NCBI RefSeq assembly: GCF_003385895.1
Contig: NZ_QRDQ01000008.1
Coordinates: 427,839-491,838 of the forward strand
Reading direction: 5' to 3'
Source: Flavobacterium cutihirudinis
Lineage (GTDB): Bacteria > Bacteroidota > Bacteroidia > Flavobacteriales > Flavobacteriaceae
Length of the DNA stretch: 64,000 nt
Part shown: positions 9,041-41,490 of the stretch, one piece after another
Layout of the letters: every line of letters begins with the position of its first letter
Numbering within the stretch: position 1 is the stretch's first letter
The notes under the pieces: model-generated
What the model was told of the DNA's origin: nothing
Databases searched by the model: none
What the model saw: only the letters and a program-made list of their open reading frames with translations
Program-made: the position numbers and the translations under genes

Positions 9041-9117
9041 TTTGTCAGGCTGAGCGGAGTCGAAGCCGTGCAAAGTGATTCAGCAAACGGGGCTTCGACT
9101 CCGCTCAGCCTGACAAA
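9041..9117. repeat. Perfect 27-bp inverted repeat, same family as crtY insert
   Basis: Arms 9041-9067 and 9091-9117 are exact reverse complements of 27 bp with a 23-bp loop. It lies after mntR and before the convergent gene ending at 9134, so it could also act as a bidirectional terminator. The related arm at 376-401 is inside crtY. Confidence 0.8.
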
Positions 9118-11892: not shown

Positions 11893-12058
11893 TTTTTTGC
11901 CACGAATTACACGAATTTACGCTAATTTTTATTTTAGCCACAGATTAAAAAGATTTTAATGATTTTTAAGCTTTGTGTATAATCCCATTAATCATTTTAA
12001 TCTGTGGCAAAAAGTATAAAAATAAATTCGTGCTAATTTGTGTAATTTGTGGCAAACT
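11893..12058. repeat. Long imperfect inverted repeat (gccacgaatt type)
   Basis: Left arm from 11893 (ttttgccacgaattacacg...) pairs imperfectly with a right arm ending at 12058 (...gtgtaatttgtggcaaa); internally, gccacagattaaaa pairs with ttttaatctgtggc. It fills the whole space between hemJ and the kinase gene. Confidence 0.65.
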
Positions 12059-12611: not shown

Positions 12612-12690
12612 TTTTTTGTTTCAGGTTTCAGGTTTCAAGTTTCAAGTTAATCAACTTTTGAGAAAAACTTTAAACTTTAAACCTGAAACA
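12612..12690. repeat. gtttcaggtttcaag direct/inverted repeat
   Basis: Tandem copies of gtttca(a/g)g face an inverted aaacctgaaac at the other end, between hemH and hemJ. A second member lies at 41400-41490. Confidence 0.5.
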
Positions 12691-15069: not shown

Positions 15070-16320
15070 ATGGAAAACAATAATGTACCGAAACACCTTT
15101 ATTTTTACTCAGTTGGTCTGAGTTATAAAAAAGCTGATGCTGAGGTCAGAGGTCAATTTAGTTTGGATGCAGTTGCGAAAACGCGTTTGCTGGAACAGGC
15201 TAAAAACGATGGAATAGAAAGTTTAATAGTTACTTCAACTTGCAACAGAACTGAAATCTACGGTTTTGCTGAACATCCATTTCAATTAATAAAACTTATC
15301 TGCGACAACAGCAACGGTTCTGTTGACGCTTTTCAAAGAGTTGGTTTCGTTTACAAAAATCAAGAAGCAATAAATCATTTATTTCGTGTAGGAACTGGTT
15401 TAGACAGTCAGATTCTGGGCGATTTTGAAATTATATCTCAAATCAAAACTAGTTTTGTTCATTCAAAATCAATGGGATTAGCTAATAATTTCATGGAAAG
15501 ATTGGTGAATGCGGTGATTCAGGCAAGCAAAAGAATTAAAAATGAAACGGAGATCAGCTCTGGTGCTACTTCGGTTTCTTTTGCATCGGTACAATATATT
15601 TTGAAGAATGTTGAAGATATCAGCAACAAAAATATTTTGCTTTTCGGAACTGGAAAAATCGGAAGAAATACTTGTGAGAATTTAGTAAAACATACTAAAA
15701 ACGAGCATATTACTTTAATAAACAGAACGAAAGACAAGGCTGAGAAATTGGCCGGAAAATTAAATCTTATTGTTAAAGATTATTCTGAATTACATTTAGA
15801 ACTTCAAAAAGCGGATGTTGTGGTTGTGGCAACAGGCGCGCAAAACCCAACAGTTGACAAAGCGATTTTGAATCTTAAAAAACCTTTGTTGATTCTGGAT
15901 TTGTCTATTCCTAAAAACGTTCATGAAAATGTTGAGGATTTAGAAGGCGTAACGTTGATCCACATGGATTATTTGTCTCAATTGACAGATGAAACTTTGG
16001 AAAACAGAAAATTACACATTCCGGCAGCGGAAGCAATTATCGAAGAAATCAAAGAAGAATTTGTAATCTGGATGAAAGGCCGAAAATTTGCCCCAACAAT
16101 TAACGCCTTAAAAGAAAAACTAAACGCTATTAAGAACTCGGAATTAGATTTTCAAAGCAAAAAAATCGCTGATTTTAATGAAGAACAAGCTGAAATCATC
16201 AGCAACAGAATCATCCAAAAAATCACTACACATTTCGCAAATCATTTAAAAGACGACGACACCATGGTCGATGAAAGCATCGAATGGATCGAAAAAGTCT
16301 TCAAAATAAAAGCATCTTAG
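15070..16320 (+). CDS. hemA: Glutamyl-tRNA reductase
   Basis: First committed step of C5-pathway haem synthesis: NADPH-dependent reduction of Glu-tRNA to glutamate-1-semialdehyde. 416 aa. The catalytic Cys58 is in TSTCNRTEIYG; the NADPH-binding domain has LLFGTGKIGRNTCENL (about 195-210), and a C-terminal dimerisation helix follows. HemL, which uses the product, is not in the window. It begins the hem gene series, running away from the AraC regulator. Confidence 0.95.
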   Translation: MENNNVPKHLYFYSVGLSYKKADAEVRGQFSLDAVAKTRLLEQAKNDGIESLIVTSTCNRTEIYGFAEHPFQLIKLICDNSNGSVDAFQRVGFVYKNQEAINHLFRVGTGLDSQILGDFEIISQIKTSFVHSKSMGLANNFMERLVNAVIQASKRIKNETEISSGATSVSFASVQYILKNVEDISNKNILLFGTGKIGRNTCENLVKHTKNEHITLINRTKDKAEKLAGKLNLIVKDYSELHLELQKADVVVVATGAQNPTVDKAILNLKKPLLILDLSIPKNVHENVEDLEGVTLIHMDYLSQLTDETLENRKLHIPAAEAIIEEIKEEFVIWMKGRKFAPTINALKEKLNAIKNSELDFQSKKIADFNEEQAEIISNRIIQKITTHFANHLKDDDTMVDESIEWIEKVFKIKAS

Positions 16321-16325
16321 TTTTT

Positions 16326-16465
16326 AATTTAAACCATTAAGATATTAAGGAAATTAAGACCAATCTTTGTCAAGAGAATTAAGCCACGCTGTAATACAAA
16401 GCTTAATAATCTTAAAATTCACCGCAAAAGCTTAATTCTCTTAATGCCCTTAATGGTAAAAAGCA
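16326..16465. repeat. Palindromic element, left copy flanking GxxExxY gene
   Basis: It begins tttaaaccattaagatatta and ends cttaatgcccttaatggtaa, so the ends (ccattaagatattaag / cttaatgcccttaatgg) form an imperfect inverted repeat. The same ends recur at 16882-16967. Confidence 0.7.
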
Positions 16466-16474
16466 AAAAGTTCT

Positions 16475-16879
16475 ATGACAAAAAAAGAGGTTACGCAATT
16501 GGCTTATGAAATTACAGGTTTTGCTATAAAAGTGCACAAAGCTTTGGGACCTGGGCTTTTAGAAAGCATATATGAGAAGTGCCTCAAATATGAATTAGAA
16601 CAAAACGGATATGATGTAAAACAACAATTATCTGTTAAAATTGATTATTACGATCTTGAATTTGAATCTGATTTAAGAATAGATCTATTGGTTAATGATT
16701 GTGTCGTTGTTGAATTAAAAGCTATTGAAAATCTTTTGCCAATTCACGAAGCACAATTATTGACATATATGAAATTATTACAAAGACCTCAAGGACTATT
16801 AATAAATTTCAACACAACAAACATTACAAAATCAATGAAACCTCTTGTAAATGATCATTTCGCAAGATTAATAGATTAA
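16475..16879 (+). CDS. GxxExxY protein (PD-(D/E)XK nuclease fold)
   Basis: 134 aa, member of the GxxExxY family, function not established. The name motif is G27-LL-E30-SI-Y33. It is followed by a nuclease-like core: D70 in LRIDLLV, the E80-L-K82 strand, and Q94-LLT-Y98, the QxxxY motif seen in RecB/Cas4-type PD-(D/E)XK nucleases. All residues for a metal-dependent nuclease site therefore seem present. It interrupts hemA and hemC and is bracketed by two copies of one palindromic element, which suggests that it is a module inserted with its repeats. No antitoxin, methylase or helicase partner is seen. Confidence 0.88.
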   Translation: MTKKEVTQLAYEITGFAIKVHKALGPGLLESIYEKCLKYELEQNGYDVKQQLSVKIDYYDLEFESDLRIDLLVNDCVVVELKAIENLLPIHEAQLLTYMKLLQRPQGLLINFNTTNITKSMKPLVNDHFARLID

Positions 16880-16881
16880 AT

Positions 16882-16967
16882 TTAAACCCTTAAGATATTA
16901 AGAAAGTTAAGCTTAATTTTCTTGACAAAGATTGACTTAATTCTCTTAATGCCCTTAATGGTAAAAA
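16882..16967. repeat. Palindromic element, right copy flanking GxxExxY gene
   Basis: Same ends and orientation as 16326-16465: the left end differs by a few bases, and the right end (cttaattctcttaatgccct...) is essentially identical. The centre is shorter and differs. It ends 8 bp before the hemC start codon. Confidence 0.7.
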
Positions 16968-16974
16968 ACAAAAA

Positions 16975-17898
16975 ATGGCTGAAAAAACAATCAGAATAGG
17001 AACGCGCGATAGCGAATTAGCACTTTGGCAGGCACATACTGTCGAAAAACAACTGAACGATTTAGGTTATAAAACTTCAATTGTTGCCGTTAAATCTCAA
17101 GGTGATATTATTCTGGACAAACCTCTTTATGAATTAGGGATTACTGGAATTTTCACTAAAACGCTTGACATTGCAATGATCAACGGTGATATTGATATTG
17201 CCGTGCATTCGATGAAAGATGTTCCTACTGCTTTACCAAAAGGAATTGTTCAGGCAGCAGTTTTAGAAAGAGCCAATGTTTTAGACATTTTGGTTCATAA
17301 AGGAAACCACGATTTCACGAACCCAAGTACGATTGCGACAGGAAGTTTACGTCGTCAGGCACTTTGGTACAACAAATACCCAAATCATACTGTAGTTGAT
17401 TTACGTGGAAACGTAAATACACGCATGCAGAAATTACAAGACAATAATTGGGACGGAGCTGTTTTTGCTGCTGCAGGTTTGGAGCGAATTAACTTAAAAC
17501 CTGAAAATTACATTAATTTAGATTGGATGATTCCGGCGCCAGCACAAGGAGCAATGCTTGTTGTGGCGATGGAAGATGACAATTATACTTTAGATGCACT
17601 TTCGCAATTAAATCATATCGAAACTGAAATCTGTACTTACATCGAACGTCAGTTTTTACGAACTTTAGAAGGCGGTTGTACAGCACCAATTGGAGCTTTG
17701 GTTACTTATAATGAGGACGAAGATACACTTCATTTTCAAGGCGTTTTACTTTCTGTTGATGGAAAACAAAAACTGGAAATCAATAAAACCGTTGATATTT
17801 CAGAATGGAAAAAACTAGGTTTTCATTCGGCTCAGGAGATTTTGAATAATGGCGGAACTGAATTGATGGCAACTATTAAAGAATCTCTGAAAAAATAA
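16975..17898 (+). CDS. hemC: Porphobilinogen deaminase (hydroxymethylbilane synthase)
   Basis: Joins four porphobilinogens into hydroxymethylbilane. 307 aa. It shows IGTRDSELALWQ at the N-terminus, the substrate-binding DVAVHSMKDVPT-type segment (DIAVHSMKDVPTALP), a RRQALW / DLRGNVNTR pair of arginine motifs, and Cys235 in LEGGCTAPIGA, which carries the dipyrromethane cofactor. Its stop overlaps the hemD start by one base (TAATG), so the two are translationally coupled. Confidence 0.96.
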   Translation: MAEKTIRIGTRDSELALWQAHTVEKQLNDLGYKTSIVAVKSQGDIILDKPLYELGITGIFTKTLDIAMINGDIDIAVHSMKDVPTALPKGIVQAAVLERANVLDILVHKGNHDFTNPSTIATGSLRRQALWYNKYPNHTVVDLRGNVNTRMQKLQDNNWDGAVFAAAGLERINLKPENYINLDWMIPAPAQGAMLVVAMEDDNYTLDALSQLNHIETEICTYIERQFLRTLEGGCTAPIGALVTYNEDEDTLHFQGVLLSVDGKQKLEINKTVDISEWKKLGFHSAQEILNNGGTELMATIKESLKK

Positions 17899-18563: not shown

Positions 18564-18575
18564 TGTAAATGACCT

Positions 18576-18653
18576 CCTGCAAGGTTTTCAAAACCTTGTA
18601 GGTTTAAATATAAATCAACAACAATACCTACAAGGTTTTGAAAACCTTGCAGG
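18576..18653. repeat. Inverted pair of REP elements (R1/R2)
   Basis: R1 (18576-18602) is itself a palindrome-like 27-mer beginning cctgcaaggtttt and ending accttgtagg. R2 (18627-18653) is its exact reverse complement. They are joined by an AT-rich spacer with aacaacaata. Located between hemD and hemE. Confidence 0.85.
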
Positions 18654-18668
18654 AAAAACAAATAAGAG

Positions 18669-19694
18669 ATGTTAAAAAACGACCTATTTTTAAGAGCATT
18701 AAAAGGAGAAACTGTTCAGCGTCCGCCGGTATGGATGATGCGTCAGGCAGGAAGATATTTACCTGAATTTAGAGAACTTCGTGATAAATATGATTTTTTT
18801 ACGCGTTGTGAAACTCCTGAATTAGCTGCGGAAATTACAGTTCAGCCAATTCGTAGAATCGCTCCAGATGCTGCGATTTTATTCTCGGATATTTTGGTAG
18901 TGCCTCGTGCAATGGGAATTCACGTTGAATTGAAAGATAATTTGGGACCGATTATTCCAAATCCAATCCGTACAATGGAACAGGTGAATCAGGTTATTGT
19001 TCCAGATGTAAATGAAACTTTAGGTTACGTTTTTGATGCTGTGAAATTGACTAAGGAAATGTTGAATGATGAAGTTCCATTAATTGGTTTTGCAGGTTCG
19101 CCTTGGACAATTTTCTGTTATGCTGTTGAAGGAAAAGGCTCTAAAAGCTTTGATACAGCAAAAGGTTTCTGCTTTTCAAACCCAGTTGCAGCGCATACTT
19201 TATTGCAAAAAATCACAGATACAACTATTTTATACTTAAAGGAAAAAGTAAAATCGGGAGTGAATGCTGTTCAGATTTTTGATTCTTGGGGAGGAATGCT
19301 TTCTCCGGTTGATTATCAGGAATTTTCATGGAAATACATCAATCAGATTGTTGACGCTTTAGCGGATATTACGCCGGTTATTGTTTTCGGAAAAGGATGT
19401 TGGTTTGCGCTTGGCGAAATGGGTAAAAGTAAAGCTTCTGCATTAGGAGTTGACTGGACATGTTCAGCTAGAAATGCTCGTTATTTGTCTGGTGGAAATA
19501 TTACTTTACAAGGGAATTTTGATCCGTCAAGATTGCTTTCTCCAATTCCGACTATCAAAAAAATGGTTCACGAAATGATCGACGAGTTCGGAAAAGATAA
19601 ATATATTGTAAATTTAGGTCACGGAATTTTACCAAATATCCCTGTAGATCACGCCAAAGCGTTTATTGACGCGGTTAAGGAATACGGGAACTAG
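18669..19694 (+). CDS. hemE: Uroporphyrinogen decarboxylase
   Basis: Converts uroporphyrinogen III to coproporphyrinogen III in the cytosol. 341 aa, standard length. Signatures: [15 protein letters not shown] near residue 20 (substrate-binding Arg pair), [12 protein letters not shown] (catalytic Asp), [26 protein letters not shown] and [10 protein letters not shown] with the conserved His. It is separated from hemD by a REP pair, and followed by one REP and the RAYT gene. Confidence 0.97.
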
Positions 19695-19714
19695 TATTCA
19701 GTCTCATTGGCATT

Positions 19715-19741
19715 CCTGCAAGGTTTTCAAAACCTTGTAGG
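19715..19741 (+). repeat. REP element R3 upstream of RAYT
   Basis: Identical in sequence and orientation to R1 (18576-18602). It lies after hemE and 59 bp before the RAYT start codon. Confidence 0.85.
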
Positions 19742-19745
19742 TTTA

Positions 19746-19795
19746 AATTTGTTTTATATTTACAGTAAAAACTTACAGTAAATATAAAACAAATT
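19746..19795. promoter_or_regulatory. Perfect hairpin adjoining RAYT start codon
   Basis: Arms 19746-19763 and 19778-19795 are exact 18-bp reverse complements (aatttgttttatatttac) with a 14-base loop. The hairpin ends 4 bp before the ATG at 19800, so in mRNA it would bury the ribosome-binding region. Confidence 0.6.
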
Positions 19796-19799
19796 AAAA

Positions 19800-20351
19800 A
19801 TGAAACTTGAAGTATTGAAAAAAGATTATTATTATCATATTTATAATCGAGGAATTAATGGAACAAACATTTTTGAAAATGACGCTAATAAACTTTATTT
19901 CTTAAAGCAATTAGCTAAATATTTGGAGAATAAAATTTCCATTTTCGGTTATTGTTTGATGAACAATCATTTTCATTTGGTTATTCGGTTGAACACTGAA
20001 GAAAAAGAGGTTACACAAGCATTCTCAAATTTATTTAATTCTTACGCAAAAGCATTTAATAAACAAACCAACAGAACCGGAAGTTTATTCGAAAAGCATT
20101 TTAAAAGAATAAATTTAAAAGATGAAAATTATTTAAGACGACTGATTGTTTATGTTCATTTAAATCCAAGACATCATTTCGATATAGATTTTACAGATTT
20201 TAAGTTTTCATCTTATCAAGCTTTTTTATCAAATCGGGAAACAAAAGTAGAACGAGCTGAAGTTTTGACTTTATTTGGAGATTTAGAAAATTTCATCTTT
20301 TGTCATAATCAGAAAAATGAGTTTTTAAATGAAACTTATACTTTTGAGTAA
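19800..20351 (+). CDS. REP-associated tyrosine transposase (RAYT, Y1/IS200-like)
   Basis: A 183-aa HUH single-strand endonuclease of the Y1 transposase family that acts on REP hairpins. The HUH motif is H57-F-H59 in MNNHFHLVI; the catalytic Tyr is probably Y118 in IVYVHLNPRHH; the N-terminal YYHIYNRGINGTNIF and GSLFEKHFKRI segments are family marks. It is not flanked by terminal repeats of a complete IS; instead five copies of one REP lie within 1.9 kb, one directly upstream and an inverted pair downstream. It is intact and probably functional. It sits in the haem gene series in the same direction, so it depends on readthrough or its own weak promoter. Confidence 0.9.
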   Translation: MKLEVLKKDYYYHIYNRGINGTNIFENDANKLYFLKQLAKYLENKISIFGYCLMNNHFHLVIRLNTEEKEVTQAFSNLFNSYAKAFNKQTNRTGSLFEKHFKRINLKDENYLRRLIVYVHLNPRHHFDIDFTDFKFSSYQAFLSNRETKVERAEVLTLFGDLENFIFCHNQKNEFLNETYTFE

Positions 20352-20362
20352 TTCAGGTCTGT

Positions 20363-20456
20363 CCTGCAAGGTTTTAAAAACCTTGTAGGTCTAAAACAAG
20401 ATTACAATATTTAATATTTAACAACAATACCCACAAGGTTTTTAAAACCTTGCAGG
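20363..20456. repeat. Inverted pair of REP elements (R4/R5) downstream of RAYT
   Basis: R4 (20363-20389) differs from R1 by one central base; R5 (20430-20456) is inverted relative to R4 with one extra change. The spacer contains aacaacaata as in R1/R2. The pair is 12 bp after the RAYT stop. Confidence 0.82.
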
Positions 20457-20468
20457 AAATGAAACACA

Positions 20469-41399: not shown

Positions 41400-41490
41400 A
41401 GGTTTTTTTGTTTCGGGTTTGAAGTTTCGGGTTTAAAGTTTCGGGTTTCAGGTTAGTGCATAAAACTTGAAACCTGAAACTTGAAACAAA
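41400..41490. repeat. gtttcgggttt/gtttcaggtt repeat
   Basis: Three tandem copies of gtttcgggttt-like words face inverted aaacttgaaacctgaaac. Same family as 12612-12690. Confidence 0.5.

Follow-up and report, generated by a model that had tools for sequence, protein, structure and literature searches.

In the repetitive extragenic palindromic (REP)/REPIN-RAYT systems, as described in extracts of two papers (PMC8266576, PMC3116915), inverted palindromes bracket the gene, gene-less copies occur elsewhere, and the enzyme and its repeats co-evolve. Another described system is the intervening sequence (IVS) of 23S rRNA with its S23p/IVP gene (PF05635), the mobility of which is given as proposed and unproven in an extract of PMC4990558. 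The subject of this study was a GxxExxY gene in a 64,000-nucleotide stretch of Flavobacterium cutihirudinis DNA (contig NZ_QRDQ01000008.1, positions 427,839 to 491,838; this whole stretch is referred to as the window), which lies, together with its flanking palindromes, within a run of hem genes, all on one strand. As in REPIN-RAYT (TnpA-REP, HUH Y1), the GxxExxY gene was flanked by inverted repeats that also occurred without a gene. On the other hand, GxxExxY belongs to PF13366 (PD-(D/E)XK) and RAYT to PF01797 (HUH), the GxxExxY ends consist of tandem words approximately 9 nt apart with the gene mostly inside the loop of a single palindrome, and several GxxExxY genes with different ends were present in one genome. 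An earlier reading of the letters of this DNA (referred to as the original prediction) had drawn a parallel to the RAYT gene and REPs located nearby; this parallel held in outline (a bracketed gene and gene-less copies), and not for the enzyme, since no PF01797 (HUH) domain was found on the window gene. As in the 23S rRNA IVS, a hairpin-forming element carries a small open reading frame (ORF) in its loop, whereas the GxxExxY unit is intergenic (hemA-hemC), carries PF13366 instead of PF05635, and has another word grammar. Terminal inverted repeats in gene-bearing and gene-less forms (at the frequencies given below) also resembled insertion sequences with their miniature inverted-repeat transposable elements; however, no known transposase domain was found on the GxxExxY gene. 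The four sites compared yielded neither an exact empty junction nor a target duplication. We rate the enzyme and the design of the ends as new, and a gene-bearing form with gene-less copies as already known.

Together with its surrounding inverted repeats, the GxxExxY gene probably forms one unit, likely a small mobile element encoding a nuclease that recognizes its own ends. To compare the flanks, the upstream 150 nt of each gene were aligned with the reverse complement of the downstream 150 nt (score ≥ 18 as a pass). Inverted arms that matched across the gene, none farther away than 150 nt, were detected in 99 of 148 Flavobacterium GxxExxY loci against 4 of 130 control genes (ATG frames of at least 100 codons from the window and from six arbitrary 20-kb regions); the RAYT gene and its neighbor accounted for two of these four. 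Outside Flavobacterium, 34 of 75 loci passed (those with both flanks in the best 80 of the GTDB matches listed), against 3 of 159 neighboring genes on the same contigs; the value for shuffled flanks was 4 of 669. The enrichment that the original prediction had proposed to look for was thus observed, and the taxa of the passing distant loci, according to record titles, included Alphaproteobacteria, Chloroflexota, Verrucomicrobiota, Cloacimonadota, and an archaeal metagenome-assembled genome (MAG). When one random locus was kept per strongly merged site cluster, approximately 15 of 27 Flavobacterium and 27 of 63 other loci were bracketed. A GxxExxY gene was present in 98 of 121 Flavobacterium genomes (407 matches), and the sample of 150 loci (six from the source genome, then 30 and 114 taken down the E-value list, passing over some matches that were close to the end of a contig or contained a stop) represents the best-scoring of these; both 150-nt flanks were available for 148. 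Five proteins read as short (L030, L031, L076, L086, and L132) were kept in the flank count and left out of protein comparisons, L031 being counted as short in spite of an open frame in the genus search.

All six GxxExxY genes of the source genome had inverted arms on both sides, with six different arm sequences, by which a single element sequence common to all GxxExxY genes was rejected. At a score ≥ 20, direct repeats were found in 33 of 148 loci against 97 of 148 with inverted repeats; direct repeats were therefore rejected as a general architecture, and the window, with its pair in the same orientation, does not represent the rule. At the threshold used, a single palindrome held the gene in its loop in 115 of the 133 bracketed loci, while one flank formed a palindrome of its own in 17 and both flanks in one. 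The arms had a median length of 42 nt and ended, again as medians, 38 nt upstream and 11 nt downstream of the gene; the median span of the unit was 546 bp. The arms were short tandem arrays of a single word, repeated approximately every 9 nt (a second spacing peak was at 21 nt in Flavobacterium), reading inward from both ends; the words included CATTAAG, CATATAAG, CGCAAAG, CACAAAG, CACAGAG, CGCAGAT, CGGAT, CACGAAT, and CATAG. Many arms, as judged by eye, started with CC behind a T- or A-rich stretch.

The unit of the window is a compound variant, in which imperfect palindromes lie on both sides of the gene. The matching element ends in the same orientation on both sides, claimed in the original prediction, were borne out: the 3' halves of the two elements shared 97% identity over 39 nt and the 5' halves 82% over 45 nt, each flank being an imperfect palindrome in its own right. 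Bracketing by two palindrome copies is therefore correct for the window, and not as a rule, because a single palindrome loop is the prevalent form. CTTAATGCCCTTAATGG occurred exactly twice (16440 and 16945) and, with up to 3 mismatches, four times against 0.13 expected, a number reached in none of 100 shuffles; the other half, CCATTAAGATATTAAG, with 2 matches at the same mismatch limit against 1.22 expected (37 shuffles reached 2), was not above chance alone. Four gene-less palindromes similar to the CATTAAG pair were found in the source genome, apart from the window pair.

The end words differed from gene to gene and tracked the clade of the protein, a relation absent from the original prediction. 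On a quick, weakly supported tree of 57 loci with nine word types (10 of 54 inner branches starred; L006 on a long branch), 19 word changes were required against a shuffled mean of 36.1, and none of 200 shuffles was as low. The input was labels for 144 of 214 loci, reduced to one locus per site cluster and word; these labels, the 68% identity cut, and the end patterns of IVP and GxxExxY loci (see below) were all picked after the flanks had been seen. CATTAAG formed one clade (Flavobacterium together with Weeksellaceae, Bacteroidales, and a Chlorobiota MAG), CATAG ends in Bacteroidota and one Acidobacteriota MAG needed two changes, and the CGCAAAG type alone was barely clustered (35 of 500 shuffles as low). 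The window protein had 21 relatives at ≥ 68% identity (a cut in the gap between 68% and 63%), and TTAAG words were present on both sides in 20 of 20 read loci (L399-L418); among 10 read relatives at 48-64% identity, five carried CATATAAG. At sites with unrelated surroundings, flank similarity also increased with protein identity (Mantel rho 0.21; none of 300 permutations as high), a small effect found mainly above 60% protein identity.

Each set of orthologous sites comprised the 30 best-scoring genomes out of 117-119 in which a match was found. At the site of locus L005, protein clade I with CCACAGATTAAAA ends was found in eight species, clade II with CCACGAATTTCAC-like ends in eight (including two broken copies, L211 and L216), and clade III with ACCGCAAATTACAC ends in one; full-length copies of the three clades were 57-67% identical to each other. 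Since the clade matched the end type in 17 of 17 cases, the gene and both ends have been exchanged together. The remaining 13 species lacked GxxExxY, and their alleles contained no palindrome, other repeats, or another gene. In six of them (L200, L208, L210, L213, L218, and L219), this was a gene of approximately 170 amino acids with hydrophobic stretches, and repeats of the GTTTCAGG type adjoined most copies. Among 30 hemA-hemC spacers, seven had a palindrome-gene-palindrome arrangement, two a CATTAAG palindrome alone, 14 at least one CATATAAG palindrome alone, and seven none or fragments; the spacer of L051 (495 nt) had several CATATAAG palindromes in tandem and no GxxExxY match. The gene was present in 13 of 30 species at the L004 site (eight in one orientation and five in the other), the others having palindromes alone or no clear repeat, and in 11 of 30 at the L034 site, one being cut at the edge of the fetched stretch.

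The number of word copies per genome was also related to the gene; these counts take in the ends of gene-bearing units, and the statistics ignore phylogeny. The CGCAARG word pair was detected in 73 of 98 genomes with GxxExxY against 3 of 23 without (Fisher 7e-8); of these 23 gene-free genomes, 20 were named by the search and three (G095, G098, and G101) were deduced by exclusion. Gene-free genomes held 9 of 1188 copies, and one Flavobacterium genome held 123. The difference was retained among genomes ≤ 4.3 Mb (42 of 66 against 3 of 23; p 2e-5). The median copy number of the CATTAAG pair was 18 where a close relative of the window protein was present (20 genomes, one with zero copies), 1 where the GxxExxY genes were others (78 genomes, 32 with zero copies; Mann-Whitney 4e-7 between these two groups), and 0 where GxxExxY was missing (23 genomes, 19 with zero copies). 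Among 12 distant genomes, the CCRCRGAG pair was present in six and absent in six, with a top count of 75 and many facing pairs. This top count belongs to the Rhodospirillales MAG of locus L313 (G121), in which many of the 75 CCRCRGAGNCRCRGAG matches faced each other approximately 40-70 bp apart and the GxxExxY gene had like ends. The repeats were therefore not equally common irrespective of the gene, which the original prediction had named as evidence to the contrary. The gene and its ends are one inherited unit, and word copies are tied to the matching protein.

The only Pfam domain on the window gene at E ≤ 0.001 was PF13366 (E 7.9e-39; 133.1 bits, cut-off 22), and with NCBIfam only TIGR04256 was added (E 7.7e-41; 139.1 bits, cut-off 35). 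In an alignment of 49 GxxExxY proteins, E30, D70, E80, and K82 were invariant and Q94/Y98 were retained in at least 90%, and all residues of the E-D-ExK-QxxxY series were intact in the window protein, confirming the D-(E)xK and QxxxY residues noted in the original prediction. The predicted fold is nuclease-like (PD-(D/E)XK-like), while no sequence relative was found in the PDB at E ≤ 0.001 (best E 0.36). Unlike Cas4/RecB-type and Hjc nucleases of the PD-(D/E)XK group, GxxExxY is a stand-alone protein of approximately 130 amino acids. The family has at least 7996 relatives at E ≤ 0.001 (among at least 7999 candidates), and, to our knowledge, no known role; nor do we know of a fold of this type driving such elements. 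No description of GxxExxY with flanking repeats was found among the matches listed in the open-licence PubMed Central literature, where the name GxxExxY occurred in two papers on other subjects than flanking repeats and six of the word strings did not occur.

Since the matching inverted repeats track the branch of the protein, GxxExxY likely serves as the nuclease partner to a repeat class of its own, which is probably mobile. It is unlikely, but conceivable, that the palindromes spread by other means (a transposase in trans, or template switching in replication) and that GxxExxY and IVP genes settle in their loops and co-travel. This would agree with the gene-less palindromes of several word types at sites that also hold gene-bearing ones, with the existence of nested palindromes, and with the fact that co-inheritance alone can produce a gene-end association. 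The IVP genes (PF05635; a four-helix bundle protein of 23S rRNA IVS) have the same layout: among 30 loci, of which 28 had both flanks, 16 of 28 had inverted repeats at a score ≥ 18, and the loop genes may therefore be passengers. These genes (L339-L368) were found in 60 of 61 Flavobacterium genomes searched, often with arms of the CTAAG/CAAAG type. However, IVP ends start with AGKT at a period of 8, whereas GxxExxY ends start with CC at a period near 9; the CC-start pattern was found on both flanks in 70 of 223 GxxExxY against 1 of 28 IVP loci, and AGKTNYNRAG in 12 of 28 IVP against 2 of 223 GxxExxY loci. The split was weaker for either flank (CC-start in 142 of 223 GxxExxY and 8 of 28 IVP loci; AGKTNYNRAG in 13 of 28 IVP and 17 of 223 GxxExxY loci). 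The words that track GxxExxY clades across phyla and the word-pair counts that track the matching protein also speak against passengers. Because of this difference in end grammar, we favor IVP as the putative driver of a second class over IVP as a passenger.

The nuclease-like fold, the 115 genes in palindrome loops, and the same-word gene-less palindromes could also mean that the enzyme cuts a pre-existing gene-less palindrome and that repair copies the gene into its loop, the palindrome being a target and not an element end. This appears rather unlikely, because no gene-less palindrome of the three end types was found in the printed stretches of the 13 GxxExxY-free alleles at the L005 site, where the ends changed along with the gene; at the hem site, palindromes alone were found. 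An even less probable account is that pairing of the arms gives the transcript a stem that encloses the ORF, for processing or insulation in operons, and that the protein does not recognize DNA words. The window unit lies inside a same-strand hem gene run, gene-less palindromes form long stems, and the Coxiella IVS, in an extract of PMC4990558, has a 28-bp terminal stem around an ORF that is cut by RNase III in vitro; however, neither near-constant word spacing nor a clade-following word type is needed for RNA pairing, and the L004-site gene is found in either orientation.

Several results weigh against the nuclease-driven unit itself, at least as a rapidly moving one. Inverted arms were below the threshold in 49 of 148 Flavobacterium and 41 of 75 other GxxExxY loci, so that genes lacking such flanks at this threshold, regarded in the original prediction as contrary evidence, exist beside the bracketed ones. 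CATTAAG pairs numbered 20-33 in six genomes that had no close relative of the window protein, and the IVP layout described above belongs here as well. Among the four sites (hem, L005, L004, and L034), no exact empty junction at which to read a target duplication was found; in the hemA-hemC spacers, in which the original prediction had suggested looking for an empty site, 16 had palindromes alone. The dN/dS (nonsynonymous to synonymous substitution) ratios of GxxExxY were 0.033-0.087 (0.042 for hemC), indicating strong purifying selection, divergence at the hem site was close to that of hemC, and none of the copies compared at unrelated sites were near-identical (at best 88% between genomes and 78% within one). 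High-frequency transposition is thus unsupported; the units appear to be old, often inherited vertically and exchanged from time to time. The window copy, too, appears to be an old unit of vertical descent, flanked by two complete palindromes.

In the preferred nuclease-driven unit, the encoded enzyme would recognize the tandem words of its own ends, the period of approximately 9 nt placing them near one face of the helix. It may then cut the palindrome in duplex, hairpin, or cruciform form. Through repair or copying at this position, the unit would move, and both the gene-bearing form and gene-less palindromes with the same words would spread. The link between gene and repeats claimed in the original prediction for this locus extends far beyond it, while the role of GxxExxY as the enzyme of a second repeat-mobilizing class is presumed from this link. 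If true, this gives a very large family a role, adds an enzyme fold to the drivers of such elements, and helps to explain high-copy palindromes such as the CGCAARG pairs in Flavobacterium and the CCRCRGAG pairs in the Rhodospirillales MAG; the correspondence between word and clade makes recognition directly testable. In a broader and more tentative proposal, to which we give slightly less than an even chance, GxxExxY proteins are self-encoded, word-specific nucleases of prokaryote-wide palindromic transposable elements with swappable tandem-word ends, with IVP as a second, parallel class, the two jointly explaining many anonymous intergenic palindromes.

The features of the window are listed below; the product names of the hem neighbors are those that we presume.

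Coordinates of the GxxExxY unit, its neighbors, and related palindromes in the window
Feature	Position	Strand	Remarks
GxxExxY gene	16475..16879	+	134 aa; PF13366/TIGR04256; PD-(D/E)XK-like model and QxxxY motif
Upstream CATTAAG palindrome	16333..16457		left arm 16333-16358 (ACC-ATTAAG x3), right arm 16431-16457
Downstream CATTAAG palindrome	16886..16962		same orientation as the upstream palindrome
hemA (presumed), upstream neighbor of the GxxExxY gene	15070..16320	+	left border of 30 orthologous spacers
hemC (presumed), downstream neighbor of the GxxExxY gene	16975..17898	+	right border of 30 orthologous spacers
Gene-less palindrome, CACGAATT-type words	11896..12056		arms 11896-11928 and 12024-12056; end type of the L006 GxxExxY gene
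Gene-less palindrome, CCACAGATTAAAA (CACAGATT) type	11932..12013		nested inside the loop of the 11896-12056 palindrome; end type of the L005 GxxExxY gene

The nesting of the last two palindromes, and similar nesting visible by eye in L240, L244, and L248, suggests that palindromes enter the loops of other palindromes. The RAYT-like gene (19800-20351, in the region 18575-20457) matched PF01797 with 24.4 bits (cut-off 23) and NF047646 with 46.7 bits, below the cut-off of 80, and CCTGCAAGGTTTT.AAAACCTTG palindromes were located in this region at 18576, 19715, and 20363. GTTTCAGGTTTCAAG-like palindromes were found at 12625-12689 and 41431-41487, and this type was also present in the gene-less L005-site alleles L201, L202, L215, and L221. 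Two more palindromes of the window had near-perfect arms: 1833-1935 (GGACTGAAGTCCAGCCC) and 9041-9117 (CAGGCTGAGCGGAGTCGAAG).
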